From: Tenacibaculum sp. Bg11-29
Lineage (GTDB): Bacteria > Bacteroidota > Bacteroidia > Flavobacteriales > Flavobacteriaceae
DNA: 64,000 bases
Reading direction: 5' to 3'
NCBI RefSeq assembly: GCF_002836595.1
Contig: NZ_PJBB01000003.1
Span: forward strand, 3,937,501 to 4,001,500
Shown here: positions 11,052 through 36,666 of the stretch, piece after piece
Position numbering within the stretch: position 1 is the stretch's first letter
Layout: each line of letters starts with the position of its first letter
Notes under the pieces: model-generated
Database searches by the model: none
The model's input: only the letters and a program-made list of their open reading frames with translations
What the model was told of the DNA's origin: nothing
Translations under genes and position numbers: made by a program

Positions 11052-11121
11052 GCTAACGTTTCTTGTATGGTGCGTTTACATCCCGAAGGGTGTATATGCA
11101 TTATACAAATTGTTGTATACA
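11052..11121 (-). repeat. attC-like site A1 (short form, 70 bp)
   Basis: Runs from the constant GCTAAC to GTTGTATACA. The inner hairpin is around CATCCCGAAGGGTG; the form matches A8. Follows the gene 11125-11745 in the minus-strand sense. Confidence 0.75.
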
Positions 11122-11124
11122 GTT

Positions 11125-11745
11125 TTACCTTTTAGCCTTATTTCCAAAATCATCCATCAATTTTTGTAACTCAAGGGTTTTTTTATTAGTTCTCGTTAGT
11201 ATGTGTATTGTTGTCATTTTACCTCTAATATTTACATAGTAACTGTTCTGAATACCAATAGTATCTGACTTTTCATCAGTGAAAATGAAATTTAAATATT
11301 TTCCGAAATTCTCACCAAATGTAGCATTGAAATATTCACTTAAAATACATTTAATTTCTGAATTTTGCTTTTGTTCTTTTTTAATTTCTTCTAATAAGCA
11401 AAAATCATAAAGTGAATTTTCATTCTCGAGATTCGGCATTTTTAGTGTATCTGAATCTACAAATCCGAATGCCTTATTAAAAGGGTCCTCTTTTTCAATA
11501 AACCCAATAGAATATTCACCGTGAATTTGTTCAAAAGTTTTTTGACTTTTAATTATTTTTTTAAAATCATCTTTTGAAAAAACATAATCATAATTTGTAT
11601 TCACAGATACTTTTTTCTCAAATACTATTGAATCATTTTTAGAATGTTTTACATTGATGTCTTTCCATTTGTTTTTTTTGCTATTTGTACAAGAAGAAAC
11701 AAAAAAGCATAATATTAAAAATTTAAGGATGGATAATATTTTCAT
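11125..11745 (-). CDS. Cassette gene 1: putative lipoprotein, unknown function
   Basis: 206 residues with a lipoprotein signal (FLILCFFVSSC, lipobox Cys near 19). The rest is a charged, soluble domain that I do not recognise. The cassette flanks GTTGTATACA (11112-11121) and TGTATACAAC (11756-11765) are exact complements. Likely an outer-membrane or periplasmic lipoprotein. Confidence 0.7.
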   Translation of the reverse strand: MKILSILKFLILCFFVSSCTNSKKNKWKDINVKHSKNDSIVFEKKVSVNTNYDYVFSKDDFKKIIKSQKTFEQIHGEYSIGFIEKEDPFNKAFGFVDSDTLKMPNLENENSLYDFCLLEEIKKEQKQNSEIKCILSEYFNATFGENFGKYLNFIFTDEKSDTIGIQNSYYVNIRGKMTTIHILTRTNKKTLELQKLMDDFGNKAKR

Positions 11746-11765
11746 TTTTTTTAATTGTATACAAC

Positions 11766-11788
11766 TTGTTTATATAAGTATCTCTAAT
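11766..11788 (-). repeat. Truncated cassette-leader site T1
   Basis: Keeps only TTGTTTATATAAGTA of the roughly 70-bp leader hairpin seen intact at 15811-15880. The remainder has been replaced by the gene 11788-12354. Confidence 0.55.
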
Positions 11789-12354
11789 TAAATTTCATCT
11801 ATTCTTTTAGTTATTTTATCTATCTCTATTTTGAATTTATCTTTTATAATTATAGATATAAAAATTATTTTATTGTCTTTTAAAATATTAAAGTTATAAC
11901 CAAAACTAATTGAATCATTTACAATAATTTCATAGACTTGGTATTCTTTATACGGTAATTTAAACCTATTATTTCTTTCATATCTAAAATTAGGTGTAGT
12001 AACCTCTCCATATTTATGACCAACTATATAAGCCAAAAAATAAATTTCCATTTCGTCAATATTAGAAAATGGGTAAACATAATAACTACTAGCAAATGAA
12101 CCTATAAGTTTATTTTTTTTCCATAGTTCTGATTCGTATTTGTATGTAATTTCTTCAGATTTTTTATCAACAACCTTTTCAAATTTATTGTTTTTAATTT
12201 CAATATTAACTAAAAGCTGTTCTGCTAAAATATCTTTCTCAAAAAAAATTTTCGTTTTATCTGATTCTTGAAAATTAACTTTTTGTTTAGTATTATTACA
12301 ACTAATAAAAAATAACAACATCAAATAAAAAAATCGATTTACATTTAACTGCAT
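11788..12354 (-). CDS. Putative lipoprotein, unknown function
   Basis: 188 residues with a lipoprotein signal (YLMLLFFISC, Cys near 19). No recognised domain. Unlike its neighbours it lacks complementary cassette flanks: its 3' side abuts a truncated leader site and its 5' side a degenerate constant module (ACTTACCACA element at about 12420). It may be an insertion into the module. Confidence 0.65.
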   Translation of the reverse strand: MQLNVNRFFYLMLLFFISCNNTKQKVNFQESDKTKIFFEKDILAEQLLVNIEIKNNKFEKVVDKKSEEITYKYESELWKKNKLIGSFASSYYVYPFSNIDEMEIYFLAYIVGHKYGEVTTPNFRYERNNRFKLPYKEYQVYEIIVNDSISFGYNFNILKDNKIIFISIIIKDKFKIEIDKITKRIDEI

Positions 12355-12504
12355 CTATTATCAAATAATTTATATTAAAATGTAAATGTATAAAACAATA
12401 TAATTTATAATTCTTTTTTCTTACCACAATTATGTCAATGAACTTTTTTCAGTTTTAATGGCTCTGAAAACCTACACTATTTATATTATTTGTTAATTTT
12501 AGTT

Positions 12505-12530
12505 AAGTAAGGTTCAGCCTTACTTTTTTT
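12505..12530 (+). promoter_or_regulatory. Attenuator-like hairpin ahead of GG-peptide gene 1
   Basis: AAGTAAGG / CCTTACTT stem with 5-base loop and a run of seven T, about 65 bp before the ATG. The same element precedes the second peptide gene (15983-16008), which argues for conserved transcription attenuation. Confidence 0.55.
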
Positions 12531-12568
12531 ACGGTTTTTTATCATCAATTTTATTTTATACTATTTAG

Positions 12569-12593
12569 ATTTGAGAAACTTTAAAACTCAAAT
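12569..12593 (+). promoter_or_regulatory. Start-site hairpin of GG-peptide gene 1
   Basis: ATTTGAG (12569-12575) pairs with CTCAAAT (12587-12593), ending 1 bp before the ATG. Identical stems at 16047-16070 suggest control of translation initiation. Confidence 0.5.
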
Positions 12594-12594
12594 T

Positions 12595-12729
12595 ATGTTA
12601 AAGAACATTTCAAACTTAGGTTCAGTATTAAATAAAACTGAACAACAATTAATTAATGGTGGTAATATACATTGCTGTATGTTGTTAGTTAACAACTGCT
12701 GCGATCCTAAAATCCCAACTGATGATTGA
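12595..12729 (+). CDS. Double-glycine-leader, cysteine-rich peptide 1
   Basis: 44 residues, too short for routine gene calls. The leader MLKNISNLGSVLNKTEQQ ends in LINGG at 23, followed by a 21-residue core with four Cys as two CC pairs. This is the bacteriocin/pheromone-type GG leader seen in many small Flavobacteria peptides. It shares leader, 5' hairpin, attenuator and a downstream terminator with the gene at 16072. No maturation enzyme or ABC exporter is adjacent; a C39-like protease is at 10372. Opposite in strand to the cassettes. Function is inferred from the leader only. Confidence 0.7.
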   Translation: MLKNISNLGSVLNKTEQQLINGGNIHCCMLLVNNCCDPKIPTDD

Positions 12730-12734
12730 TTTAT

Positions 12735-12760
12735 AAGCGAACTTCGGTTCGCTTTTCTTT
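12735..12760 (+). terminator. Terminator of GG-peptide gene 1
   Basis: AAGCGAAC-TTCG-GTTCGCTT (12735-12754), a stable tetraloop hairpin followed by a T-rich tract, 5 bp past the stop. Confidence 0.85.
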
Positions 12761-12822
12761 TGTCAATATTCTTCATTCTACTGTTATTTTAATATTTGTT
12801 ACTTAAATTTTAGACATAAAAA

Positions 12823-12845
12823 AACAACACCTTGTGAGTGTTGTT
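12823..12845 (-). terminator. Constant-module terminator R2
   Basis: AACAACAC / GTGTTGTT, 7-base loop, T7 on the minus strand; ends the cassette group of 13007-15793. Confidence 0.8.
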
Positions 12846-12868
12846 CTGTGGTAAGTTATATTCTTTTT

Positions 12869-12999
12869 GCTAACGGTTGGTGTATGGTTTGTTGCGTATT
12901 TAAATGTACTCATTTTTGGTTAAACGACTAACTTCACAAAGAATTACTTACCTTTGGTTTAGCAATTTATAGCAATAAACTATACACTGTGTTAGGCAA
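12869..12999 (-). repeat. attC-like site A2
   Basis: 131 bp from constant GCTAAC to GTTAGGCAA (12991-12999). The outer arms TTGCG... and ...AGCAATTTATAG pair imperfectly. R' side joins the constant module; R'' belongs to gene 13007-13567. Confidence 0.75.
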
Positions 13000-13006
13000 T
13001 GTTTTC

Positions 13007-13567
13007 TTATTCATATTCTCGTAATTCAAATGATAAGTTTGAAAAATTATCTCGAAATGCATTTATTCCCGCCTCTAATTCTAATCTGATTTGAGAACTA
13101 CTAACAATTTCTCCTCTAACACCAGTATGAGTGCTTGGAGTGTTATAAAAAATGACGGAATTATTAATGTCAATGGAGGTGTCAAGAGTTCCTAGGTACT
13201 TCCCCTGTGATTCCCTTATCCAGCTAATATCCAATCCCAATGTGTTTTCCAAAATTGCAGATGTTGGATTAGTTGCACCTGATTGACTAATTAATGATAC
13301 ATATCTATTAAACCCTAGATTTGCATTTTGTCCATTGCAAATAAATTTAGTGTTGTCAACTTCTGTTAGTTCAAGTTGATTATTGGAGTTCAAATCAATA
13401 CCACTTTGAATTTGAAAACCACCATTGGAACAATTTCCACCAGGTTGCTCGATTAGAGTGACAATTAAACTGTTTAATCCATCAATACCATCCGTCCCAT
13501 CATCTCCACTACAACTTATAATTAGTGTTATTAATAATACTAAAAATATTTTAGTTACTTTTCTCAT
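13007..13567 (-). CDS. Cassette gene 2: lipoprotein with DUF7151-like repeat
   Basis: 186 residues. Lipoprotein signal (LLITLIISC, Cys19) followed by GDDGTDGIDGLN and the block GGNCSNGGFQIQSGIDLN...EVDNTKFICNG, a cysteine-paired module common in surface lipoproteins of marine bacteria (DUF7151-type). The C-terminal half is a beta-rich unknown. Flanks GTTAGGCAA / TTGCCTAAC, the textbook attC R'/R'' heptamer pair. Likely cell-surface. Confidence 0.75.
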   Translation of the reverse strand: MRKVTKIFLVLLITLIISCSGDDGTDGIDGLNSLIVTLIEQPGGNCSNGGFQIQSGIDLNSNNQLELTEVDNTKFICNGQNANLGFNRYVSLISQSGATNPTSAILENTLGLDISWIRESQGKYLGTLDTSIDINNSVIFYNTPSTHTGVRGEIVSSSQIRLELEAGINAFRDNFSNLSFELREYE

Positions 13568-13590
13568 AATAATTGAATATGTTTTTAATG

Positions 13591-13727
13591 TTGCCTAACG
13601 GTCTCGTATAAGAATAGTTGCGGGTTTGTGTGCGAGGATTTTCCGAAGGAAAATCAGACGTAGCAAACACGCAACTACCTTTGATTAAGCACTAAACCGC
13701 AATTGTTTTTATACATTGTTGTGCTTA
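13591..13727 (-). repeat. attC-like site A3
   Basis: 137 bp between TTGCCTAAC (13591) and GTTGTGCTTA (ends 13727). Central hairpin GATTTTCCgaaGGAAAATC; outer arms GTTGCGGGTTTG / ACCGCAAT. Confidence 0.8.
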
Positions 13728-13761
13728 GTGTTTTTATTTTTTATAATCAATTCAGTCAGTT

Positions 13762-14172
13762 TTAGAGTTGAATTGTCGTATTCGTTTTTAACAATTCCAA
13801 AATTTTTATTCGGTCAGTAATATTATCATAAAAAATCCAATCTGATATTGTTCCAGTCGACTTTTTGAATCGTTTTTCCAATGCTGTTGAGTTTCTGTTA
13901 ATCAAAGCATCGTTATCCAAATTATTCAGAATTTCCACAATTAATTTTTCCGCATATTCATCATCAATTTCCGTCCAGTTTTCGATTTCTGGTGTTGATA
14001 TTAATTCAACAAAACTTACCAAGTCAGAACTTCTCCAATAGTTTTTCAAAAAGTCTACGTCTATTTTTAAAGACGATAATTCATTAATGTTTTCTACTGT
14101 CTTTTCAGCGGATTCTGTTCCGTTTTCAAATCTGATAATTAGTTCTTTTATTTTACTTTTCAGTTCTTCCAT
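13762..14172 (-). CDS. Cassette gene 3: hypothetical cytoplasmic protein
   Basis: 136 residues from ATG at 14172; the frame is open to a GTG at 14196, but that lies in the cassette flank. Acidic, helical, no signal peptide. I do not recognise a family; length and composition resemble small immunity-type proteins, which is only a hint. Flanks GTTGTGCTTA / TAAGCACAAC perfect over 10 bp. Confidence 0.7.
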   Translation of the reverse strand: MEELKSKIKELIIRFENGTESAEKTVENINELSSLKIDVDFLKNYWRSSDLVSFVELISTPEIENWTEIDDEYAEKLIVEILNNLDNDALINRNSTALEKRFKKSTGTISDWIFYDNITDRIKILELLKTNTTIQL

Positions 14173-14189
14173 TATCAGTTTTTTCACAT

Positions 14190-14328
14190 TAAGCACAACG
14201 TTGTTGTGTAAGATTAGTTGCGTGTTTTAAGCAGTGAATTTAGTAAATAAAACACGAACCAAGAAAGTCCGTTTGGACTTTCGTAAATTGGCTAAAACCA
14301 GCAATTAATTTTACACGGTGTTGGCAAA
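14190..14328 (-). repeat. attC-like site A4
   Basis: 139 bp from TAAGCACAAC to GTTGGCAAA. Central hairpin GAAAGTCCgtttGGACTTTC; near-identical to A11 and A12 (30.4 and 31.3 kb). Confidence 0.85.
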
Positions 14329-14334
14329 TCGTTT

Positions 14335-14877
14335 TTATTCTGTTTTTATTTTTTCCCACTTTCCTTTTCTAAAATACATATTATGAAACTTTTTAGATTT
14401 AAAAACTAAATAAAAATTCCACCAACTTTTTCGATAAGTTGTCGGATTAGTTTCAGTAATATGGTGATTAGGTTCATTCATTTTCAGAACGAGTCTTTCA
14501 GAACTATATGGTTTTACAGTTGATATTGTTCCTTTATTTATTGAAATTATTTTTTCGTTTTCCATTGTATAAAGAAAAATAGAATCGTTTTCAGTTATTT
14601 CCATTTTAAAATGGTTGTATTGCCAATCAGCTTGTTTTCCTTTGAAAAAGTTTCGGTCGATTGTATATTCTCCATAATAATCGTCCTTTTCAAGAAAACT
14701 TGTATCAGGAAATAAGCTCGCAATTAAGGATAGTCCAATCAGACAAAAAATTGGTATCCAAATACAACCAATTGCTTTAAAAAACCCTTCTTTTTTACTG
14801 AATGCTCCCAATAAAAAAAGTATTAAAGTTAAAGGAAGAATTATGAAAATCATTCCAAGATTAAATCCAAATCCCAT
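14335..14877 (-). CDS. Cassette gene 4a: membrane-anchored hypothetical protein
   Basis: 180 residues. Two N-terminal membrane segments (about 5-25 and 34-53), then a beta-rich domain (EYTIDRNFFKGKQADWQYNH) of unknown function. 19 bp downstream of gene 14897-15190; the two share one cassette, as flanks GTTGGCAAA (14320) and TTTACCAAC (15197) enclose both. Confidence 0.7.
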   Translation of the reverse strand: MGFGFNLGMIFIILPLTLILFLLGAFSKKEGFFKAIGCIWIPIFCLIGLSLIASLFPDTSFLEKDDYYGEYTIDRNFFKGKQADWQYNHFKMEITENDSIFLYTMENEKIISINKGTISTVKPYSSERLVLKMNEPNHHITETNPTTYRKSWWNFYLVFKSKKFHNMYFRKGKWEKIKTE

Positions 14878-14896
14878 TTAGTTTATATTCATTTTT

Positions 14897-15190
14897 TTAT
14901 TCGGAAAACACATAAAATTCATCTAAAAATTCTCCAGAAATATTTAAGTGATATTCGTAAAATCCAATTTTATTTTTTTCAAAAATATTAACCTTTCCAA
15001 TAATAACTATTCTGCCATTAAAATCATTAGGTATTTTAATCTCAATTCCGCTAAATTCATATTTTAATTTATCTGTTTCTCGATTATCAATTGTAGGATT
15101 ATTTTTAATTAATTCACCGAGAAAATGGAATGTTTTCTCTTTGACTTTTAAGGTATTTATTATTTCAAATATTTGATTTTTCGCTTTCAT
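14897..15190 (-). CDS. Cassette gene 4b: hypothetical protein
   Basis: 97 residues, soluble, beta-rich in the second half. First gene of the only clear two-gene cassette. No recognised domain. Flank complementarity has one mismatch (GTTGGCAAA versus GTTGGTAAA). Confidence 0.6.
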   Translation of the reverse strand: MKAKNQIFEIINTLKVKEKTFHFLGELIKNNPTIDNRETDKLKYEFSGIEIKIPNDFNGRIVIIGKVNIFEKNKIGFYEYHLNISGEFLDEFYVFSE

Positions 15191-15196
15191 TAAATG

Positions 15197-15335
15197 TTTA
15201 CCAACGGGCTTGTATATGGAAATTTGCGGGTTTGTGTGCGAGGATTTTCCGAAGGAAAATCAGAAGCTAGCAAACAAAGCAATTAACTTTGGTTAAGCTA
15301 AAAATAGCAATTTTTTATATACGGTGTTACCATTA
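15197..15335 (-). repeat. attC-like site A5
   Basis: 139 bp from TTTACCAAC to GTTACCATTA. Central hairpin GATTTTCCgaaGGAAAATC as in A3. Confidence 0.8.
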
Positions 15336-15340
15336 GTTTT

Positions 15341-15793
15341 TTATATTTTATAATAACCTCCGTCTTTCCATAATCTAGTTCCTAGAAAATTTCCGCAAAA
15401 GTCGTATCGTTTTATTGGGCTTAGTTTTTCCACATTTTTACCGTGACTAAAAATCCAAATTTCATTTTCAACAATTTTTATCCGATTAAATTTTCTAGTA
15501 TCAGAAGCGTCCATTGAGCTTATGAAAACTGATTTTTTTTCAAAAACCTAATTTCCACTTTGGTCAATAATTCGGTCAGTCACAATGACTTTTTTATGCC
15601 TTAAAGTCCAAAATAAAAACTTTCGTTTCTTTTCAGTCCGTTCAGTTTTCAGAGTCACGTTTTCAATTCCGCAATCATTTTTTTTAGTCAGATTTACGTT
15701 TTGAATTTCAGACGTTTTGATTTCGCTATTCAGATTAATGAATAAGAAAATTAAACTTAATGATGTTGTGAATATTGTTTTGATGACGGTCAT
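15341..15793 (-). pseudogene. Cassette gene 5: secreted protein interrupted by an amber codon
   Basis: One frame runs from ATG 15793 to TAA 15341-15343 (150 codons) with a single TAG at 15548-15550. Before it: a signal peptide and a basic region (81 residues, ends DRIIDQSGN). After it: VFEKKSVFISSMDASDTRK...YDFCGNFLGTRLWKDG, clearly protein-like. The halves read as one beta-rich secreted protein. Flanks GTTACCATTA / TAATGGTAAC are perfect, so the cassette is otherwise intact. A recent nonsense mutation is most likely. Confidence 0.7.
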
Positions 15794-15810
15794 TTTAAAT
15801 TAATGGTAAC

Positions 15811-15880
15811 TTGTTTATATAAGCACCTTTAGTACTTATAGACAAACCAAATGGAGGTATATGCGTACTAAAGGTGCTTA
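15811..15880 (-). repeat. Cassette-leader hairpin T2 (attI-like, full form)
   Basis: Begins right after the cassette flank with TTGTTTATATAAGCACC. Arms AAGCACCTTTAGTAC and GTACTAAAGGTGCTT are 15 bp perfect, extended by ATATAC/GTATAT across a 2-nt internal bulge, loop about 13 nt. On the minus strand it directly precedes the first gene of a cassette group. Full copies also at T3, T4, T6 and T7. Confidence 0.75.
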
Positions 15881-15982
15881 AAATTACATCTTTTTTTACT
15901 TACCACAATTATGTCAATGAACTTTTTTGCTTTTTAGTAGTGCTAATAACTACACTTATTTTATATTTTGTTAATTTTAGTT

Positions 15983-16008
15983 AAGTAAGGTTACCCCTTA
16001 CTTTTTTT
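15983..16008 (+). promoter_or_regulatory. Attenuator-like hairpin ahead of GG-peptide gene 2
   Basis: AAGTAAGG (15983-15990) / CCTTACTT (15996-16003) plus T-run; same element and distance as at 12505. Confidence 0.55.
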
Positions 16009-16046
16009 ACGGTTTTTTCTTATTAATCTTATTTTTTACAACTTAT

Positions 16047-16070
16047 ATTTGAGAAATTAAAAACTCAAAT
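16047..16070 (+). promoter_or_regulatory. Start-site hairpin of GG-peptide gene 2
   Basis: ATTTGAG / CTCAAAT stem ending 1 bp before the ATG, identical in stem to 12569-12593. Confidence 0.5.
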
Positions 16071-16071
16071 T

Positions 16072-16233
16072 ATGTTAAAGAACATTTCAAACTTAGGGAC
16101 ATCCTTAAACAAATCAGAACAACAATCTATCAATGGAGGAAATGGTCGCCCTTTACCTTGTAGTAATCTACCAAGCAGAATTAATGGATTTTGCTACCTC
16201 TGTGGTGTACTAATGGATAACAATAACTGTTAA
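16072..16233 (+). CDS. Double-glycine-leader, cysteine-rich peptide 2
   Basis: 53 residues. The leader MLKNISNLGTSLNKSEQQ ends in SINGG (23) and differs from peptide 1 at only a few positions, while the 30-residue core is unrelated and has four single Cys. Conserved leader with divergent core is typical of secreted GG peptides under diversifying use. The upstream 110 bp are also shared with gene 12595. A terminator follows at 16243. Confidence 0.7.
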   Translation: MLKNISNLGTSLNKSEQQSINGGNGRPLPCSNLPSRINGFCYLCGVLMDNNNC

Positions 16234-16242
16234 CATTAGTTT

Positions 16243-16268
16243 AAAAGCGAGCTTGTGTTCGCTTTTTT
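16243..16268 (+). terminator. Terminator of GG-peptide gene 2
   Basis: AAAGCGA / TCGCTTT stem with T8, 9 bp after the stop. Confidence 0.8.
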
Positions 16269-16300
16269 TTAAAATTTTGATTATCATTTATTCTACAGTA

Positions 16301-16591
16301 TTAAGCGAATGGAAAAGGAATTTCCACTTCTCTATTTTTGATTAAACTTTCTATTTTTAATTTCCCTGTTGTAATTTCTTTTGCGTGTTTTTTACAAGGT
16401 ATAAAACCACTAAACACACCATTTACACAAGCTGCTTTATATCTTCTTTTATCATCCTTTGTTGGATTACCTTTCATTAGTTGAGGAGGTTGCTCACAAA
16501 ACTCTTTAATGCAACAATCAGGATAACCAAGTGCTTTACCGAAAGGTTCATTTTCTAAAGTCCATACTTTTATTAAATTTTCTTTATTCAT
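16301..16591 (-). CDS. Small cysteine-rich hypothetical protein
   Basis: 96 residues. The motif LGYPDCCIKEFC with later CVNGVFSGFIPCKKHA recalls DUF483-type proteins that share a GYP-CC element. Cys/His pattern could bind metal. It starts 15 bp after the stop of the ASCH gene at 16607, separated only by the linker TTAAAATAACAGTAG, so it is co-transcribed. It is a non-cassette gene within the constant module. Confidence 0.6.
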   Translation of the reverse strand: MNKENLIKVWTLENEPFGKALGYPDCCIKEFCEQPPQLMKGNPTKDDKRRYKAACVNGVFSGFIPCKKHAKEITTGKLKIESLIKNREVEIPFPFA

Positions 16592-16606
16592 AATTCTACT
16601 GTTATT

Positions 16607-17008
16607 TTAATATTCTAATATTTTTCTAATTTCATCATTAGAAAGATCTCTGTTTCTTTTGAATTGAAAACCTTGCCTCCCAATTGATAATATTTCACCA
16701 AGTCCAATACAAAAACAATATTCTTCACTAGCTCCCCATTCTTTCAAGCCAAGACTTATATGAATGCTATCAAATTCAATAACAAATTGAGGTCTTGTTT
16801 TAGAAAATCCGTTAGAAAATGTAATAGTGTCATAGTCTTTAAAGACTTGATAATCTATAGGTTCAATACAACCATTTTCATCAAAATTATTGAATAACCT
16901 TTTGAAATAATAAGGCTTTAAAGTCCTGTATTCTTCTTTCTTAAAACCGTTTAGAATCTTAAAAAACCATTCTTTTTTTAGATTAAGATGTAATGTTTTG
17001 TTTTTCAT
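16607..17008 (-). CDS. ASCH-domain-like protein, copy 1
   Basis: 133 residues. LHLNLKKEWFFKILNG, KKEEYRTLKPYY and TITFSNGFSKTRPQFVIEF match the ASCH fold (PUA-like, RNA-binding or nucleoside-processing), short single-domain form. It differs from the copy at 23343-23744 at only four residues, and the DNA flanks are also shared. Non-cassette position inside a constant module. Cellular target unknown. Confidence 0.7.
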   Translation of the reverse strand: MKNKTLHLNLKKEWFFKILNGFKKEEYRTLKPYYFKRLFNNFDENGCIEPIDYQVFKDYDTITFSNGFSKTRPQFVIEFDSIHISLGLKEWGASEEYCFCIGLGEILSIGRQGFQFKRNRDLSNDEIRKILEY

Positions 17009-17025
17009 ATTCTTTTAATTACTGT

Positions 17026-17054
17026 TTTGATGTTATTCTAAATTTATACATTTG
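17026..17054 (+). promoter_or_regulatory. Bacteroidota-type promoter
   Basis: TTTG (17026-17029), 17-bp spacer, TACATTTG (17047-17054): exact match to the -33/-7 consensus. Drives the small gene at 17071. Confidence 0.7.
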
Positions 17055-17070
17055 CTTAAAAATAATTGTT

Positions 17071-17268
17071 ATGAATCCATACATTGCAGGTGTTATTTTA
17101 ATTGCTACTTTTTTTATAATTGAATACTTAGCTTATTATCTTTATTTATCTAAAACCCCGAAAAGAAAACTTTGGCAATCAAAAAATCAAGGTATGTTTT
17201 CTTTAAGTTTCCTTTTTTCTCTTAGTTCTTTATATACTTTCATTCAATGGCTATTAAAAGTTATTTAA
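17071..17268 (+). CDS. Small membrane protein
   Basis: 65 residues from ATG 17071, chosen because the consensus promoter ends at 17054. Two transmembrane segments (about 5-27 and 44-62) around a basic loop KTPKRKLWQSKNQG. No family recognised. Plus-strand, between the ASCH gene and a constant module. Confidence 0.6.
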   Translation: MNPYIAGVILIATFFIIEYLAYYLYLSKTPKRKLWQSKNQGMFSLSFLFSLSSLYTFIQWLLKVI

Positions 17269-17313
17269 CTACTGTTATTTTAATATTTGTTACTTAAATT
17301 TTAGACATAAAAA

Positions 17314-17336
17314 AACAACACCTTGTGAGTGTTGTT
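17314..17336 (-). terminator. Constant-module terminator R3
   Basis: AACAACAC / GTGTTGTT with minus-strand T7; closes the one-cassette group of 17492-18079. Confidence 0.8.
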
Positions 17337-17359
17337 CTGTGGTAAGTAATATTCTTTTT

Positions 17360-17494
17360 GCTAACGTGTTTGTGTATGATTTTTTGCGTTTATACAACAC
17401 CTAATTTAGTAAATACAAACTAAGTAGAAAATCCTCGAGGATTTTCGTAAGTAGACAAGAACCAAGCAATTAATTATACACGGTGTTGCCATTA
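17360..17494 (-). repeat. attC-like site A6
   Basis: 135 bp from GCTAAC to GTTGCCATTA. Central hairpin GAAAATCCtcgaGGATTTTC. Confidence 0.8.
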
Positions 17495-18079: not shown

Positions 18080-18091
18080 ATTAATGGCAAC

Positions 18092-18160: not shown

Positions 18161-18275
18161 AAAATTACATCTTTTTTTACTTACCACAATTATGTCAATG
18201 AACTTTTTTGCTTTTTAGTAGTGCTAATAACTACTGTTATTTTAATATTTGTTACTTAAATTTTAGACATAAAAA

Positions 18276-30105: not shown

Positions 30106-30283
30106 TTTTGCTTTGTTTAAAATTAATATTAAAAAAGTAAAAATAATGGTATTTTATATTAAGCATTCATCAGTCGAAGATTTTTCATTTTAATTTTAAG
30201 CAAATAAACATACTTTTACTTTAATTTACAATACCCAACAACCCTATGTTAAATAGGGTTACCCCTATTTTCTTTAACATTAT

Positions 30284-30318
30284 TTTAACATTTAGCGAGC
30301 CGCTTAATAAATGTTAAA
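30284..30318. repeat. 11-bp inverted repeat at island cassette block 2 border
   Basis: TTTAACATTTA (30284-30294) pairs with TAAATGTTAAA (30308-30318), with GCG/CGC inside. Just upstream is a second dyad AAATAGGG/CCCTATTT (30251-30270). These occupy the gene-free stretch 30106-30504 together with terminator R6 and site A11. Confidence 0.5.
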
Positions 30319-30323
30319 CATAA

Positions 30324-30349
30324 AAAAACACCTCTAACGAGGTGTTTTT
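30324..30349 (-). terminator. Constant-module terminator R6 (variant)
   Basis: AAAAACACCTC-TAAC-GAGGTGTTTTT. Same position relative to the attC-like site as R1-R5 but different stem; ends cassette block 2. Confidence 0.75.
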
Positions 30350-30368
30350 TGGTAGGTAAATATACTGA

Positions 30369-30503
30369 GTTAACGTTGTTATATATGGTTTGTTGCGTGT
30401 TTTAAGCAACTAATTTAGTAAATAATTACCGACCAAGAAAGTCCGCGAGGACTTTCGTAAATTGGCTAAAATCAGCAATTAATTATACACGGTGTTGGCA
30501 ATA
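30369..30503 (-). repeat. attC-like site A11
   Basis: 135 bp from GTTAAC to GTTGGCAATA. Central hairpin GAAAGTCCgcgaGGACTTTC. Confidence 0.85.
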
Positions 30504-30504
30504 G

Positions 30505-31257
30505 TTAATTTTCATATTTACCTAACAATTTAATTTCAGCTTTCCAGTCATTTTTCACATATTTCTCACTATTATAAATTCTGAAAAAACTTTTAATTGG
30601 TAGTTTTTTCAAAATTGTTTTTATAGAATCTAATTCATTTTGATGAACTGAATTGTCAGTAAAAAGAATAAAATTAAGACTGTCAATATTTTTCTCTTTT
30701 TTAGAATAATAAAAAGGAAAAACTTCGTATTTAAGTCTATTTAAATTATGTGAGTTATCTGTCCTCGCTATTAAAGAGTCATTTTTTTTTCCAATGTAAA
30801 TATTAAAGGCAAATTCTTTATTTCTAAATTCAGTTAGTTTTTCAGATGTTTCAGGTAATTTTAAGTCCAAACCAACTTTATTTTCAATATATTCAAAGTT
30901 GTTTTTTATTTTCTTTAATTTAAGCCTAAATATAGAATCATTTTCAGATTTTATTAATAGGGTGTCTTTCGTTAGATTAAATTCATAATCAATGATGTGT
31001 TTATTGTTAAATATAGATGTGTCACCACGTAAAAGTGTTAGTTCAATTTTTGAGTCTCTAATTTTCCAATTATCTGAATATGTATCATACATAATAGAAT
31101 TATCAACAACCATTGAGTCTTTAAAAAACTTAATATCAATTTCAATATTCATATCAGATGTAGAACTCCAATTTCCAATAAAATCAGATTTTATATTTTC
31201 CTTTTTACAAGAGAAGAAAAAAGGTAAAATAATAATTGCTAAGATTCTCTTTTTCAT
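30505..31257 (-). CDS. Cassette gene 11: lipoprotein, unknown function
   Basis: 250 residues from ATG 31257 (MKKRILAIIILPFFFSC, lipobox Cys17). The frame runs on to 31305 through the flank and attC-like site; that start is rejected. NWSSTSDMNIEIDIKFFKDS and later beta-rich segments are lipocalin-like in appearance, not diagnostic. Flanks GTTGGCAATA / TATTGCCAAC perfect. Confidence 0.7.
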   Translation of the reverse strand: MKKRILAIIILPFFFSCKKENIKSDFIGNWSSTSDMNIEIDIKFFKDSMVVDNSIMYDTYSDNWKIRDSKIELTLLRGDTSIFNNKHIIDYEFNLTKDTLLIKSENDSIFRLKLKKIKNNFEYIENKVGLDLKLPETSEKLTEFRNKEFAFNIYIGKKNDSLIARTDNSHNLNRLKYEVFPFYYSKKEKNIDSLNFILFTDNSVHQNELDSIKTILKKLPIKSFFRIYNSEKYVKNDWKAEIKLLGKYEN

Positions 31258-31260
31258 AAT

Positions 31261-31399
31261 TATTGCCAACGTTGTTGTATATGGTTTGTTGCGTGTTTTA
31301 AGCACTTAATTTAGTAAATAATTACCGACCAAGAAAGTCCGCGAGGACTTTCGTAAATTGGCTAAAATCAGCAATTAATTATACACGGTGTTAGCTGTA
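31261..31399 (-). repeat. attC-like site A12
   Basis: 139 bp from TATTGCCAAC to GTTAGCTGTA; nearly identical in its interior to A11. Confidence 0.85.
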
Positions 31400-31404
31400 G
31401 TTTT

Positions 31405-31917
31405 TCAATGTTTTTCTATTTGAGGGTTATTTCCTGCATAATACCATTTTCCTTTATATTCAAATAGGTGATTAATATAAATTGTATAAAAATTATTTTT
31501 CGAAATAATTTTTATATTGAACTTAGTTAAAGTTATTGATTTATTATCTTTTTCTATTTTTTGTTCAATTGATTTTACTTCAACTTTTTTTAGCTTTATA
31601 AAATTCCAATTAATTCCTAACATCTTGCCATTTTCTCTCAATAAAGCAATTCCATTATAATAGCTTTCAAGTAATGAATGATATTCTTTTGAAATCTCCG
31701 AAATTTCATTTTCATTTTTTTCAATACCGATACTTTTGCTAAATTCAGTTAGAGTTTCAATATTCGGCACAATTCTCTTCATCTCAATAGTATCTTTTGA
31801 ACTAATAATTTTCAAAAATTGCTCACTAAATTGTTTCGGAGTTTGTTGCCCAAAGCTTTTCACAAAAGTAAAAAAGGCAATTAATAATATTAATAAAATT
31901 TTATTTCGTTCAATCAT
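31405..31917 (-). CDS. Cassette gene 12: secreted hypothetical protein
   Basis: 170 residues. Signal peptide MIERNKILLILLIAFFTFVK..GQQ. Residues about 28-170 have the helix-then-sheet order of NTF2/SnoaL-like small domains, ending YKGKWYYAGNNPQIEKH; not decisive. Flanks GTTAGCTGTA / TACAGCTAAC perfect. Confidence 0.65.
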   Translation of the reverse strand: MIERNKILLILLIAFFTFVKSFGQQTPKQFSEQFLKIISSKDTIEMKRIVPNIETLTEFSKSIGIEKNENEISEISKEYHSLLESYYNGIALLRENGKMLGINWNFIKLKKVEVKSIEQKIEKDNKSITLTKFNIKIISKNNFYTIYINHLFEYKGKWYYAGNNPQIEKH

Positions 31918-31922
31918 TTAAT

Positions 31923-32126
31923 TACAGCTAACGTTTAGCTATGAATAGTATGGGGCAGAAAATCCGCGGATTTTCGTGTCGACACAAGCCATAAGCTTTT
32001 AGATTTTGTTTTTAGTTTGTCGTTTTAAAAAAGCCAAATTAAAAGATTTGGCGATAAAGTAAAGATAAAATTACTATTCAGATTAAAGCCCAAAACCCGT
32101 AATATTTATAGGTTTTGTTAGGGGTA
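31923..32126 (-). repeat. attC-like site A13 (long form)
   Basis: 204 bp from TACAGCTAAC to GTTAGGGGTA. Contains both GAAAATCCgcGGATTTTC and AAGCCAAATtaaaAGATTTGGC hairpins, a hybrid of the two inner types. Confidence 0.75.
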
Positions 32127-32133
32127 GTTTTTA

Positions 32134-32679
32134 CTATTCAATAATTAATATCAAGCTATTTGAGGTATTAGTATAGTAGGATAGTTGAATTTCATACCTC
32201 CCTTTAGGTAGATTATAATCGTTTGTGTCAAATACAACAATGTCTCGTAGTTTAAATTCTCGAGTAATTGATTCATTAGGTTTTAAATTGTAATAATAAT
32301 GTTTTAATTCTTCCTCTTTATAAAATTGGGAAGACAATATTGCCTTATTTTCGTGTTTCAAAACAGACTCATTGGTTTTCAAGCTAACTACTTTTGCTAT
32401 TGTACCCCAAGGTCCACCAGTAGAAACTCTAGGTTTGTCAAATAGAATATTTTGTTCTTGAGTATTATTATTAGTTAGAGTGATTCTCACCAAAATTTCA
32501 TCAGTGCTCTTAAAAGATGCATACCTAAATTCAATGTTTACCTGAACCACTGGTAGATCATGGATCATTCTTTTTTTAAGAATTGGATATATGGTATTAT
32601 TTTCAATATCGTGTATACTTCTAGCGTTACTACTTAAAAAACATAAAAGTAATGTTAAGATACAAAATGTAGTTTTCAA
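32134..32679 (-). CDS. Cassette gene 13: secreted beta-rich hypothetical protein
   Basis: 181 residues. Signal peptide (1-19, LCFLSSNA). VNIEFRYASFKSTDEILVRI and LKPNESITREFKL with a C-terminal GRYEIQLSYY give an immunoglobulin-like beta sandwich pattern. Probably periplasmic. Flanks GTTAGGGGTA / TACCCCTAAC perfect. Confidence 0.65.
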   Translation of the reverse strand: MKTTFCILTLLLCFLSSNARSIHDIENNTIYPILKKRMIHDLPVVQVNIEFRYASFKSTDEILVRITLTNNNTQEQNILFDKPRVSTGGPWGTIAKVVSLKTNESVLKHENKAILSSQFYKEEELKHYYYNLKPNESITREFKLRDIVVFDTNDYNLPKGRYEIQLSYYTNTSNSLILIIE

Positions 32680-32713
32680 AATAATTTTCTTTTATTTGTT
32701 CGTATTGTTTAGT

Positions 32714-32851
32714 TACCCCTAACGTGTTTGTATATGGTTTGTTGCGTGGTTTAAGTACTAAAGTTAGCAAATAAAAACTGAATAGAAAATCCGAGAGGAT
32801 TTTCGTAAGTAGGCTAGGACTAGCAATAAATTATATACGGTGTTACCTGTA
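32714..32851 (-). repeat. attC-like site A14
   Basis: 138 bp from TACCCCTAAC to GTTACCTGTA. Central hairpin GAAAATCCgagaGGATTTTC. Confidence 0.85.
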
Positions 32852-32852
32852 G

Positions 32853-33413
32853 TTATTTTTTTCTATACACTTTTAAATTATACTTAAATTCGGTTCCATC
32901 ACTTTCTAAAAATTCAAATACTTTCAATTCCGTTTGAGTGATTTCCGCTATTTCTATTTCGTTTTTCGTAAACTCAATTAAAGAACCAGATTTTTTTAAT
33001 TGTTCCAAAAGCCCAGGTGCAAGTTTGTCAATCGGCACATTATATTTTGGTTTGTCAAAAGTCATTCTAAAAATCTTTGCTTTTGAGTCATATTCCCAAA
33101 TTCCGCTTTCACAGTTTTCCGTATTTTCACAACGAAATAGTTCATACGTTTTGTCTTTTTCAATTCGCATATTCGGTCGAGAAATAAATTCAGTCGCTGT
33201 AATTGTGTCATTCACGAAATGTTTTGCTTCTGCAATTGTTTTTCCGTTCTTATCGGTCAATTTTTGAAATTCCCACGTTCCAATAATCAGCTTTTCAATT
33301 TTTTCCGCACTTTTCTTCGTTTTTACGTCGTCAACTAATTCCAAATAAGTTTTAGATGACTGGCAATAAGTCAAAAGTGGTAATAATATTATGGCTAGGA
33401 GGATGTTTTTCAT
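32853..33413 (-). CDS. Cassette gene 14: lipoprotein/secreted hypothetical protein
   Basis: 186 residues. Signal with LLPLLTYC, so a lipoprotein with Cys17 is likely. IIGTWEFQKLTDKNGK and SGIWEYDSKAKIFRM are typical of lipocalin-like (DUF4488/5004-style) proteins, suggestive only. Flanks GTTACCTGTA / TACAGGTAAC perfect. Confidence 0.65.
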   Translation of the reverse strand: MKNILLAIILLPLLTYCQSSKTYLELVDDVKTKKSAEKIEKLIIGTWEFQKLTDKNGKTIAEAKHFVNDTITATEFISRPNMRIEKDKTYELFRCENTENCESGIWEYDSKAKIFRMTFDKPKYNVPIDKLAPGLLEQLKKSGSLIEFTKNEIEIAEITQTELKVFEFLESDGTEFKYNLKVYRKK

Positions 33414-33416
33414 AAT

Positions 33417-33554
33417 TACAGGTAACGTATTCGTGTATGATTAGTTGCGTTGGCTATAACTAAGTTAGTAAAATTGAACGAACCAGAGGAAAATCCGTAG
33501 GAATTTCCAAGTAGGCGAGAACAAAGCAATGAATTATACACGTTGTTGTAAAAC
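33417..33554 (-). repeat. attC-like site A15
   Basis: 138 bp from TACAGGTAAC to GTTGTAAAAC. Inner hairpin GGAAAATCCgtagGAATTTCC is slightly decayed. Confidence 0.75.
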
Positions 33555-33568
33555 GTTTTTATGCTGTT

Positions 33569-34012
33569 TTAATTCCAATAACCTTTTGTTCGTAGTAATT
33601 TTTGTAAAATATGATAAAGGCTATAGTATGCCTTTCCTTTTTCTAATTCGATTTCAATACTTGTTCCATCTCGCAATCCAATTACCCATTTAGTCAGTTC
33701 AAATTTATAAACCATTCGGTCAAAATTTTCTTTTACACTTTTTTGTTCAGATTTATTAGTTTTAATGTTTTCTATTTGAGAAAGAAGTGTTTTATTCTCC
33801 TTTGTAATAAGGTGATTTTGAGTAATTATAACTTGAGATTCATTTTCTGGATTATAAATTAATTCAGCGTTTTCAATTCCAATATTATCTGTAATAGAAT
33901 CTACTTTTATTTTTTCAGATTCCGTTAATTGTGAGTATAGCTTTGCGCCAAGAAGAGGAAATTCATATTCCTTAGATTTTTCAATTATTATGTTTCTTAG
34001 TTTGGAATCCAA
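33569..34012 (-). CDS. Cassette gene 15: hypothetical cytoplasmic protein
   Basis: 147 residues, no signal peptide; charged and helical with a beta-rich end. Not recognised. Flanks GTTGTAAAAC / GTTTTACAAC perfect; preceded by full leader hairpin T6. Confidence 0.65.
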   Translation of the reverse strand: MDSKLRNIIIEKSKEYEFPLLGAKLYSQLTESEKIKVDSITDNIGIENAELIYNPENESQVIITQNHLITKENKTLLSQIENIKTNKSEQKSVKENFDRMVYKFELTKWVIGLRDGTSIEIELEKGKAYYSLYHILQKLLRTKGYWN

Positions 34013-34034
34013 TTTTCGTCAAATGTTTTACAAC

Positions 34035-34103
34035 TTGTTTATATAAGTACCTTTAGTACTTATATACAAACCAAATGGAGGTATATGCGTACTAAAGGTG
34101 CTT
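34035..34103 (-). repeat. Cassette-leader hairpin T6 (attI-like)
   Basis: Full copy; upstream on the minus strand it joins an empty constant module with R7. Confidence 0.75.
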
Positions 34104-34218
34104 AAAATTACATCTTTTTTTACTTACCACAATTATGTTAATGAACTTTTTTGCTTTTTAGTAGTGCTAATAACTACTGTTATTTTAATATTTGTTACTT
34201 AAATTTCAGACATAAAAA

Positions 34219-34241
34219 AACAACACCTTGTGAGTGTTGTT
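34219..34241 (-). terminator. Constant-module terminator R7
   Basis: AACAACAC / GTGTTGTT stem with minus-strand T7. Confidence 0.8.
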
Positions 34242-34264
34242 CTGTGGTAAATAATATTCTTTTT

Positions 34265-34401
34265 GCTAACGTATTTGTGTATGATTAGTTGCGTGGTTTA
34301 AGTACCTAATTTAATAAATATAAACTGACCATCGGAAATTCCGAAGGAATTTCCAAAGTAGAACAGAAGCAAGCAGTTAATTATACACGGTGTTAGCATA
34401 C
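34265..34401 (-). repeat. attC-like site A16
   Basis: 137 bp from GCTAAC to GTTAGCATAC. Inner hairpin GGAAATTCCgaagGAATTTCC. Confidence 0.8.
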
Positions 34402-34914
34402 GTTATTTATTTGTTCTCTTATTTTTTCAAGTTCCGCTTTAATATTTTTGTCTTTTATTAATCCCGAAAATTCAGTCACTTTTTCAGTCGTTTCTCCCCA
34501 AAATGCTCTTTTCCAAAATGGATAAAGCAAAAACATAGAACTTGTTCCGGAATATTCATACTCTCGATTTTCTTTTTTAATTTCATAAACATTCTTAAAA
34601 ATAGTTTCTCCTTTGTAATAATCAGTTCTTCTCATTTTTACGCTAAAGAAGTCGATAAGACGATTTATTCCTTCTTTTATTTCTACACCATATTGTTTTC
34701 CATAATGAATATGACTAAACCCACATCCGACAATTAATTCCGAGTTTCCAATATCAAATTCAAACCAAACTACTGAACTTTCACTTTCCTGAGAGTATAC
34801 ACTAATATGATAACATTCCTCATATTCTTCTGATTCGCTATAATTGTCAGGAAAATGTTTTTCAAGAAACTCCTTAATATCATTAAAAGCAATTCTGATT
34901 TTATCTTTTTCCAC
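34393..34914 (-). CDS. Cassette gene 16: hypothetical cytoplasmic protein
   Basis: 173 residues, acidic, no signal. VVWFEFDIGNSELIVGCGFS and WFEF/GYQ-like sheets suggest a small alpha/beta protein; no family known. The cassette flank GTTAGCATAC supplies the TAA stop; the partner flank is GTATGCTAAC (34962-34971). Confidence 0.65.
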   Translation of the reverse strand: MEKDKIRIAFNDIKEFLEKHFPDNYSESEEYEECYHISVYSQESESSVVWFEFDIGNSELIVGCGFSHIHYGKQYGVEIKEGINRLIDFFSVKMRRTDYYKGETIFKNVYEIKKENREYEYSGTSSMFLLYPFWKRAFWGETTEKVTEFSGLIKDKNIKAELEKIREQINNVC

Positions 34915-34971
34915 TTTATTCTTATTTCAATCTTGGTTATCGTTTATGTTCGGTTTTTAATGTATGCTAAC

Positions 34972-35040
34972 TTGTTTATATAAGCACCTTTAGTACTTAT
35001 ATACAAACCAAATGGAGGTATATGCGTACTAAAGGTGCTT
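34972..35040 (-). repeat. Cassette-leader hairpin T7 (attI-like)
   Basis: Full copy identical in arms to T2 and T3. Confidence 0.75.
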
Positions 35041-35155
35041 AAAATTACATCTTTTTTTACTTACCACAATTATGTCAATGAACTTTTTTGCTTTTTAGTA
35101 GTGCTAATAACTACTGTTATTTTAATATTTGTTACTTAAATTTCAGACATAAAAA

Positions 35156-35178
35156 AACAACACCTTGTGAGTGTTGTT
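35156..35178 (-). terminator. Constant-module terminator R8
   Basis: AACAACAC / GTGTTGTT stem with minus-strand T7; closes the first cassette group next to the integrase. Confidence 0.8.
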
Positions 35179-35201
35179 CTGTGGTAAATAATATTCTTTT
35201 T

Positions 35202-35398
35202 GCTAACGTTAAATATATGGCATTTAGGGCGGAAAATAAACGGTTATTTTCGGTTAAGCACTAAGCCAAACTTTTGCATTTTGATTTACCTTTTTCTTAC
35301 TAAAGCCAAATCAAAATATTTGGCGACCTCGCAAATAGACAGCAACCTTTTGATTAAACAATAACCAGCCCTATTTGCTATATATGGTGTTGTATGTT
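35202..35398 (-). repeat. attC-like site A17 (long form)
   Basis: 197 bp from GCTAAC to GTTGTATGTT; inner hairpin GCCAAATcaaaatATTTGGC. Confidence 0.75.
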
Positions 35399-35400
35399 CG

Positions 35401-35802
35401 TTATTTATAACCATAAAGTCTCAATGTTCCATTCTCTTTTTCCATATCAAAAACTCCAATTTTGTTAATAGTCTTTTCAATTTTAATAACATCCTGCTTG
35501 AGTTCGGAAACCATTTGTCTTGAAACACGTTTATTAATTATTATTTGCATCTTCTGAGGGAATTCAATCCACTCGATTTCCTTATAAAAAACAGGTTCGA
35601 TGAAAAAAGGTCTGAAATCAACAATATCATATTCCATTTCTGTAATCTTATCAAGACCAATTAACTTATATCTAATTATAATAGAGTCAAATTCCTCAAT
35701 CAAATTTTCAAATAGTTTTTCCCATTTAGATTCATTCATAAATGAAGAGAAATTATTTTCCTGAATTATCTTATCAATTTTAGTTTTTTCCGTCAAAATC
35801 AA
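35401..35802 (-). CDS. Cassette gene 17: hypothetical cytoplasmic protein
   Basis: 133 residues, soluble alpha/beta, no signal. EYDIVDFRPFFIEPVFYKEIEW (quoted in part: VDFRPFFIEPVFYKEIEW) is distinctive but I know no family. Flanks GTTGTATGT / ACATACAAC perfect over 9 bp. Confidence 0.65.
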   Translation of the reverse strand: MILTEKTKIDKIIQENNFSSFMNESKWEKLFENLIEEFDSIIIRYKLIGLDKITEMEYDIVDFRPFFIEPVFYKEIEWIEFPQKMQIIINKRVSRQMVSELKQDVIKIEKTINKIGVFDMEKENGTLRLYGYK

Positions 35803-35827
35803 TTTTTAGTATGGTTCTTGTTTAATG

Positions 35828-36026
35828 ACATACAACGTCTCGGCTATGGTTAGTACGGGAATTAAAATGACTGAATTTCCGATTAAGCACTTAGCCAAAA
35901 CTTTTTATTTTGTTTTATCTTTTTTGTTCTAAAGCGAAATCAAAAGATTTGGCGGACTTAGTTAAAAGCTCTAAACTTTGGGTTAAGTACCAAAACTCGT
36001 ATTAATTATAGCCATTGTTGTAGTGC
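35828..36026 (-). repeat. attC-like site A18 (long form)
   Basis: 199 bp from ACATACAAC to GTTGTAGTGC; inner hairpin CGAAATCaaaaGATTTGGC. Confidence 0.75.
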
Positions 36027-36637
36027 GTTTTTAAATGTTCTAAGTAATTTGGTTTATCCTCTAATAATAGTTTTCCATTAAAATTATACACATCATATTC
36101 AAGATTAGCATCAAATACACCTTTATTATTATTTTGAGCGAATATATACTTTCGATCATCGCGAAGAATTGTAATTTCATCATATTCTATGGGAACAATT
36201 ATTTTTGATTTGGTAGTTAATACACCCCATTTTCCACCAATACAAATACGATGTTTCTCTTTTATCGAAATAGCATCGTATTTAAATAATCTTGCTCCTT
36301 TATTTACTGTAAATAGGTTTTCTCCAATTTCTTGTATTGGATAGTTGATATAGGTTAAATTTGGAGATAAAACTTCTTTCCCATTTTTATCTACAATACC
36401 AAATTTTCCGTTTTTTAATTCGCCTATGAAATCATCATCTCCAAATCTATCAACCCAGGGTTTGTTGTCATCAAAAAAATCATAAGACTCCTCACTCCAA
36501 TCCCATTTGTATTTTCCGATAAAGACAAGATAAAGTTTAAGATGATTTATATAATAAATATAGTCAAACTTGGGTTCTAAAATGATGTTGTTGTCTAGTC
36601 TTAATCCGAATTTTTTATTCTCTTTGTAAATTTTCAA
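36002..36637 (-). CDS. Cassette gene 18: WG-repeat-like protein
   Basis: 211 residues. NKKFGLRLDNNIILEPKFDYI, LKNGKFGIVDKNGKEVLSP and GGKWGVLTTKSKIIVPIEYDEI are WG repeats (KxGlid..g..iip..yd), a beta-repeat of unknown binding role; shown here in parts: GKFGIVDKNGKEV, GKWGVLTTKSK. The last seven codons lie inside the attC-like site A18, so the C-terminus is contributed by the recombination site. First cassette after the integrase. Flanks GTTGTAGTGC / GCACTACAAC perfect. Confidence 0.75.
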   Translation of the reverse strand: MKIYKENKKFGLRLDNNIILEPKFDYIYYINHLKLYLVFIGKYKWDWSEESYDFFDDNKPWVDRFGDDDFIGELKNGKFGIVDKNGKEVLSPNLTYINYPIQEIGENLFTVNKGARLFKYDAISIKEKHRICIGGKWGVLTTKSKIIVPIEYDEITILRDDRKYIFAQNNNKGVFDANLEYDVYNFNGKLLLEDKPNYLEHLKTHYNNGYN

Positions 36638-36666
36638 TCGATTCGTTTGTTTAAATGCACTACAAC

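Follow-up and report, generated by a model that had tools for sequence, protein, structure and literature searches.

The 64,000-nucleotide (nt) stretch of Tenacibaculum sp. Bg11-29 analysed here (contig NZ_PJBB01000003.1; hereafter the window, within which coordinates are given) very probably carries gene-cassette arrays of a Flavobacteriales integron-type system whose integrase is not IntI. An earlier note on this DNA had described eighteen minus-strand cassettes, each with complementary ends of its own, and our measurements confirmed them. Integrons of the phylum have been recorded before. IntegronFinder 2.0 added one complete integron, in Salinibacter ruber, to a Bacteroidetes record that had earlier held only In0 (PMC9024848), and Bacteroidota are listed among the integron phyla (PMC8618304). 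IntegronFinder was also run on a Tenacibaculum genome, where it found none (PMC10013915), and a cluster of attC sites lacking an integrase (CALIN) is known from Polaribacter phage P12002L (PMC9892861). Within the open-access literature searched (subscription papers and preprints lay outside its scope), flavobacterial arrays with a non-IntI recombinase are absent from the available portions of the integron surveys.

All 18 cassettes were re-measured and found at the positions given earlier. When the 10-nt start of each cassette (GTTN7) was compared with the reverse complement of its own end, 173 of 180 positions were identical; ends re-paired at random agreed at 100.8 positions on average and never at more than 132 in 100,000 shuffles. 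Thirteen of the 18 have ten consecutive complementary bases and three have nine, and two imperfect cassettes, with GTT at 14320 and 21939, match at 8/10 positions each. The pairing is confined to 10 nt. Position 11 matches in 0/18 cassettes, being mostly G at the start and T at the end on the plus strand, a G·T wobble, and positions 12 and 13 match in 15/18 and 17/18, not above expectation for conserved bases. The longest open reading frame (ORF; among those of at least 80 amino acids, aa) lies on the minus strand in all 18 cassettes of this one genome. Most integron cassettes likewise self-pair over 9-11 nt (PMC2727003). In eight stretches around canonical IntI genes from other genomes of the phylum, 10-nt end pairing was seen at loci L195, L198, L199 and L205, with a different attC type, and not at L196, L197, L200 and L201. 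These four provide a partial positive control for the paired-end observation.

The cassettes are linked to 18 attC-like sites, which are grouped in eight mini-arrays; the smallest of these have a single cassette and the largest has five. An alignment of sites (A1; 12 rows from the window and 25 from other loci) gives a 16-bp stem, separated from AAC by about 4-7 nt and from GTT by 3 nt. The structure was named from one A1 row, and RNAalifold recovered 12 of its pairs. Stem cells are paired in 96.7% of cases, compared with 85.7% when shuffled and at most 53.4% when slid, in an alignment in which the site ends of the 25 non-window rows, and not those of the window rows, were picked by arm complementarity. 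Nine pairs changed on both sides, and 66 such cells were counted against 20.5 in shuffles. The 12 window rows alone pair in 182/192 cells.

Two of the stem pairs are almost always G·T in one direction (34/37 and 35/37 A1 rows; 11/12 and 10/12 window rows), and the tally over the whole stem, taken with the window rows, is 25 G·T against 2 T·G. On the gene strand these fixed wobbles become mismatches of C with A, and the opposite strand therefore folds better. This bottom strand was the more stable in 59/66 sites, 36/37 isolated stems and 17/18 circle forms. A G follows AAC in 65/66 sites and a T precedes GTT in 66/66; the strand-stability and flank-base counts cover 66 of the 71 sites and omit five that are 50-69 nt long. 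No extrahelical bases were found on the L'' arm: at none of the columns of the 16-bp stem are most A1 rows unpaired. Strand identity appears to be encoded by wobbles rather than by unpaired bases, in what is otherwise the logic of an integron attC. Rfam returned zero matches for these sites at gathering scores. Folding and covariance of the repeats, on which the earlier note had let its reading depend, gave strand-biased hairpins with a covarying stem and not repeats devoid of attC-like pairing.

The likely cassette recombinase is encoded outside the window. The best match to the IntI profile in the genome is a 376-aa tyrosine recombinase (C3:2090137-2091264), whose family in this genome and its relatives we call F-type. 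The gene lies 45 nt from another cassette array (L029), about 1.85 Mb from the window. Its stop codon is followed by a palindrome, GTT, a cassette whose two ends are exactly complementary, and more sites beyond. The profile search found no canonical IntI over the cut-off in the genome, and the window contains neither an F-type match at E<=1e-30 nor an IntI over the cut-off. The observation in the earlier note that no IntI is visible holds for the window, but a likely cassette integrase is present elsewhere in the genome, together with an attI-like site and cassettes of its own.

An insertion of about 41-43 residues that is specific to IntI is missing from this recombinase. Model TIGR02249 aligned to it in two stretches, skipping positions 180-238, with 198.6 bits against a cut-off of 265, and NF040815 scored 234.6 bits. 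From KGxKDR to LRHSFA, 51 F-type rows span 66-68 aa, and the three IntI rows, out of 20, in which this span was measurable have 109 (17/20 were not). In a tree whose IntI came only from the same phylum and from which eight rows were dropped beforehand, 20 IntI rows formed one clade with 100/100 support that excluded 45 F-type rows; F_L062 and F_L063 fell outside the main F clade. The structure model (mean pLDDT, the predicted local distance difference test, 80) matched 4a8e, 5hxy and 2a3v, with the lowest root mean square deviation of the three to 2a3v, in a fold search that scarcely covered N-terminal residues 1-102. The enzyme is closest to XerA-like recombinases and to IntI. About 100 additional residues at the N-terminus and its location at cassette arrays set it apart from XerA and archaeal Xer-like recombinases. 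Many relatives carry the NCBI label 'site-specific tyrosine recombinase/integron integrase', which I take to derive from the NF040815 model and not from arrays.

F-type relatives are widespread in the family. Among 149 genomes, about one per genus of the Flavobacteriaceae, 118 have one at E<=1e-30; in 26, among them the genome studied here, the E-value is no higher than 4e-125. Relatives of 54-66% identity were found at 27 loci in Aquimarina, Cellulophaga, Winogradskyella, Flaviramulus, Xanthomarina, Saonia and Flavobacteriales bins, and relatives in other genera directly precede a palindromic attI-like site and cassettes. Among distant relatives that keep the N-terminal part (34-46%), 17 of the 18 with at least 1.6 kb of downstream sequence have a match there to R1, our model of the attC-like sites; two further ones sit at contig ends. 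Several contigs (L068, L072, L074, L076, L077, L078, L082 and L084) end 53-208 nt past the integrase, an effect that repeats would have on assembly from short reads.

On the gene strand, the start of each mini-array in the window is preceded by a fixed element (plus strand AACTTGTTTATATAAG, 8 copies). This attI-like element, B, ends in a hairpin, AACAA and GTT immediately before a cassette, as at 15808..15956 on the minus strand; further copies start at 11763 (core only), 18089, 21126, 22780 (shortened), 34032, 34969 and 36664 (shortened). The genome holds 24 matches to B, some of them short or palindrome-only on the other strand, including those in a second island (C3:4498.7-4526.4 kb) and a copy at C3:405374; twelve copies have the exact core. 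Among the 26 pairs of these twelve copies that are more than 90% identical over the 150 nt before GTT, the next 147 nt average 51.5% identity and reach at most 58%. The same break was observed in Cellulophaga. Contigs L067 and L070 share 98.0% identity in the 300 nt leading up to GTT and 51.4% in the 200 nt that come next, L066 and L070 share 89.7% and 48.6%, and L066 and L067 share 89.0% and 49.5%; unrelated 200-mers have a mean of 48.0% and a maximum of 52.5%. Since identity is lost sharply at GTT behind near-identical copies, different cassettes follow one fixed site. The earlier note had looked to relatives for the same repeats with different cassettes, and the Cellulophaga pair L067/L070 is such a case.

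The attI-like sites beside the recombinase genes were compared for two further features. A palindrome in the 45 nt before GTT exceeded the shuffle 95th percentile at 34/44 attI loci. The promoter-like motif TAnnTTTG, which we take to be the Bacteroidota -7 consensus, occurs within 110 nt before attI at 19/44 loci and in 8/352 windows inside int; none was found in the three window-type B copies scanned. The 44 attI positions were fixed after the loci had been viewed, and 14/58 were omitted as duplicates or because of short or unclear downstream sequence (L035, L037, L038, L039, L047, L057, L061-L064, L078, L087, L090 and L091).

Cassettes and their genes recur elsewhere. A chain parser with a tolerance of one mismatch, in which arm complementarity decided the site ends, returned 66 distinct cassettes, a few of them likely chance (e.g. 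L053, L086, L088), and 53 sites following cassettes. The protein of one window cassette (30505-31305) has homologues in 7 of 218 other genomes searched, and the homologue fills an exactly bounded cassette at 5/9 non-own loci. Exact bounds around it were not found at the other four, of which L187 has a one-sided site. The box GTTGGCAATA of the window cassette is shared at L186, L193 and L192 despite 31-39% protein identity, and the neighbouring boxes, where found (L186, L189, L193), differ. An all-against-all comparison of cassette proteins from the fetched loci gave one believable cross-genome pair, L071/L142, with 73% identity over 90 aa.

We propose that a cassette comprises a minus-strand gene and its own downstream hairpin site. 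In a free circular intermediate, the end boxes, GTTN7 and its complement, would pair and complete the folded site. We infer a recombination chemistry in which a tyrosine recombinase would open or close cassettes at GTT; their partner would be either the attI-like site, a fixed palindrome, or a second attC-like site. The folded substrate would be the strand opposite the genes, set by the fixed G·T wobbles, and a promoter before attI may express the first cassettes. The enzyme is likely the recombinase encoded about 1.85 Mb off beside another array, which is related to XerA and IntI, has an additional N-terminal domain and is devoid of the IntI insertion, and it could serve the window platforms in trans.

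Canonical chromosomal integrons resemble this arrangement in many ways. They share tandem cassettes in the same orientation, AAC/GTT boxes, a bottom-strand hairpin, box pairing to about 10 nt, a G after AAC (65/66 here; cf. PMC2727003), and an attI before the first cassette; a promoter-like motif, a candidate cassette promoter Pc, precedes attI at some of the present loci (19/44). A tyrosine recombinase stands beside the array at L029 and in relatives, though not inside the window. The presumed entry point, suggested by the sharp loss of identity at GTT and by the palindrome, is attI-like. The differences are an F-type recombinase without the IntI insertion and outside the IntI clade, an attC family without extrahelical bases, an attI that is a palindrome, and an int gene that terminates at attI and is oriented in the direction of the array. 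By its anatomy, the system seems to function like an integron, but it fails on the IntI domain, the IntI clade and the extrahelical bases. An IntI-specific domain has been treated as defining or essential for integron recombination (PMC8138268, PMC9668308). The description of the window as an integron-like array stands in its paired ends, attC-like hairpins, uniform gene orientation and variable cassettes; its enzyme is not IntI.

Sites of this kind are common in the family. Model R1, whose E-values are rough, matched 130/149 genomes of the family set at E<=1e-5 (site lists of this set refer to the matches listed, up to 23 per genome) and 35/247 genomes of a phylum-wide set at 1e-8. R1-family sites are carried by Tenacibaculum finnmarkense plasmids (L174, L175, L176). 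Two plasmids of this species share array pieces, but no claim of gain or loss is made from them because IS91-type elements blur the junctions; in L175, two tyrosine recombinase genes each stand immediately before an IS91-type transposase gene. Phage P12002L (L112) holds four R1 matches, and its DNA methyltransferase gene is bounded by boxes GTTAGGCAC and GTGCCTAAC. Phages Danklef_1-5 and JQ have R1-family sites or short partial matches. A scan of viral contigs with an exact 23-base pattern returned one stretch. In genome G401 (C1:2966458-3050130), one box occurs in many copies, some about 450 bp apart, over about 84 kb, which looks like a very large array of repeated small cassettes.

The window might instead be an ordinary CALIN, in which canonical cassettes were left by, or captured with, a classical IntI. 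We consider this unlikely, although it is the rival that survives best. AAC/GTT ends, bottom-strand hairpins and self-pairing over 9-11 nt are classical features (PMC2727003), and attC2 of the CALIN in P12002L was recombined by IntI1 (PMC9892861). Because this phage holds four R1 sites and a bounded cassette, the result hints that IntI1 can read sites of the flavobacterial type, provided that the tested attC2 is one of the R1 matches. R1 sites are common to the phage and the present arrays, and that paper treats the phage array as a CALIN for IntI1, its available part naming no flavobacterial integrase. However, no canonical IntI exceeded the cut-off in the Bg11-29 genome, and the 70 positives among the 247 phylum genomes include none from its family. 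Model R1 found no site at E<0.01 near 20 canonical IntI genes, but it found sites beside F-type integrases. In genome G184, a contig with canonical IntI coexists with R1-type sites that are accompanied by an F-type relative. The term CALIN-like, used in the earlier note, fits in that the window arrays have at least two attC-like sites and no cassette integrase nearby. It does not fit in that every mini-array keeps an attI-like site, seven of the eight keep a terminator-like end, and a likely non-IntI integrase is encoded elsewhere in the genome.

Two other explanations are far less probable. Each cassette could be an invertible segment that a tyrosine recombinase flips between two inverted sites whose overlaps (N7) match, and a shared overlap would likewise give matched inverted ends with a variable N7. 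This is very improbable: gene orientation is kept in all 18 window cassettes (one genome), different cassettes stand behind the same GTT, and inversion does not need a long, conserved, covarying stem between cassettes. Equally hard to credit are dispersed mobile hairpin repeats that landed by chance between small genes without a gene-moving role, since, for all the abundance of the sites (130/149 family genomes), insertion between genes does not make the far ends of a segment complementary and leaves the recombinase-attI-cassette order in many genera unexplained.

Several points weigh against a Flavobacteriales integron-type system with a non-IntI integrase. The attI of the genome's own recombinase is unlike B, which by eye resembles the attI of L122, from another genome. 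Trans action on the window platforms is unproven because the genome's only F-type match (E<=1e-30) is the one with this different attI. A pattern search of 58 same-genus genomes, own included, for an empty platform like those of the window gave no exact match; every match had at least two mismatches, and the matches read were own B copies only. Genomes G019 and G071 have R1 matches and no integrase match at E<=1e-30, and G018 and G127 have an integrase match and no R1 match. No R1 match lies near the integrase of L129, the one exception among the 18 above, or near 13 of 20 integrases that match in the catalytic part only (7/20 have one; three of the 20 have less than 1.9 kb of downstream sequence). 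IntI depends on extrahelical bases of attC, which these sites do not have. Alignment A1 leans toward pairing because of the way its 25 non-window site ends were picked.

The mini-arrays, located with the ORF list and the end measurement, lie on the minus strand as follows. The first has one cassette (11112..11765). The second (12991..15810) has four, at 12991-13599, 13718-14199, 14320-15205 (imperfect) and 15326-15810. The third has one (17485..18091), the fourth (18507..21128) has three (18507-19319, 19374-20302 and 20421-21128), and the fifth (21939..22782) has one with imperfect ends. The sixth (30494..34034) has five, at 30494-31270, 31390-31932, 32117-32723, 32842-33426 and 33545-34034; the seventh has one (34392..34971), and the eighth (35389..36666) has two (35389-35836 and 36017-36666). 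The distal end of seven of the eight is a constant GTTAG(C/T)AAAAA with a terminator-like hairpin, which the site at 30372 lacks. It is exemplified at 17270..17365 (minus strand; GTTAGCAAAAAG, terminator-like hairpin, T run), with other copies at 11057, 12874, 18327, 21820, 34270 and 35207.

The attC-like sites, all given on the plus strand, were placed by end measurement. Sites 1 (11055..11114, with constant TTTTTGCT preceding AAC; R1, 34.7 bits) and 8 (19317..19376; R1, 28.4 bits) belong to a 60-nt class. A class of 185-190 nt comprises sites 7 (18325..18509), 13 (31930..32119) and 17 (35205..35391), each without an R1 match at E<=1, and site 18 (35834..36019; R1, 44.7 bits). Those also recovered in the R1 scan are sites 2 (12872..12993, of a 125-nt class), 3 (13597..13720), 4 (14197..14322), 5 (15203..15328), 6 (17363..17487), 9 (20300..20423), 10 (21818..21941), 11 (30372..30496), 12 (31268..31392), 14 (32721..32844), 15 (33424..33547) and 16 (34268..34394).

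The arrays are carried by an integrated mobile element of about 30 kb at the 3' end of phoH (7711..38132), which encloses them all between 26-nt exact direct repeats (7711-7736 and 38107-38132) and has its own integrase of the type found in phages and integrative and conjugative elements (ICE). The phoH island named in the earlier note is this element. The 400-aa tyrosine integrase (36800..38002, minus strand; Arm-DNA-bind_5, Phage_int_SAM_5 and Phage_integrase domains) is taken as the element's own enzyme and not as the cassette integrase. It was rejected in the latter role on its phage/ICE domains and its long branch away from F-type and IntI, the exact placement of which is unsure.

Other features of the window were noted in passing. 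Between mini-arrays, small plus-strand ORFs at 12595-12729 and about 16072-16232 resemble, by eye, bacteriocin-like peptides with a double-glycine leader (MLKNISNLGSVLNKTEQQLINGG... and MLKNISNLGTSLNKSEQQSINGG...). Two 133-aa genes outside the cassettes (16607-17008 and 23343-23744, minus strand) are near-identical by eye, and some inter-platform spacer therefore seems to be duplicated. Many GTTGCAACA palindromic repeats, unrelated to the cassettes, occur at window 9007-10250, L030 9628-10901 and L032 7691-9321. Outside the island, a weak R1 match (52501-52596, minus strand; 32.5 bits) is possibly a lone site.

We lean, with some reserve, toward a second, separately evolved integron class in flavobacteria, built on a Xer-family recombinase without the IntI domain but with a new N-terminal domain, on folded single-stranded sites with strand choice by wobble, and on a palindromic attI. 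Its sites would be found in most sampled genera, on chromosomes, integrative elements, plasmids and phages. What was known before in this direction was the P12002L CALIN and, in Bacteroidetes, In0 and one complete integron (PMC9892861, PMC9024848). Canonical IntI is frequent in other sampled classes of the phylum, with none seen in the family studied here. Model R1 together with the integrase provides a direct means to map the system. If the reading is true, this would be a second case of recombination at single-stranded sites, by an enzyme without the IntI domain, and would offer a clean route to the role of that domain. The many cassette genes of marine flavobacteria, a large and unstudied pool, would also come within reach.

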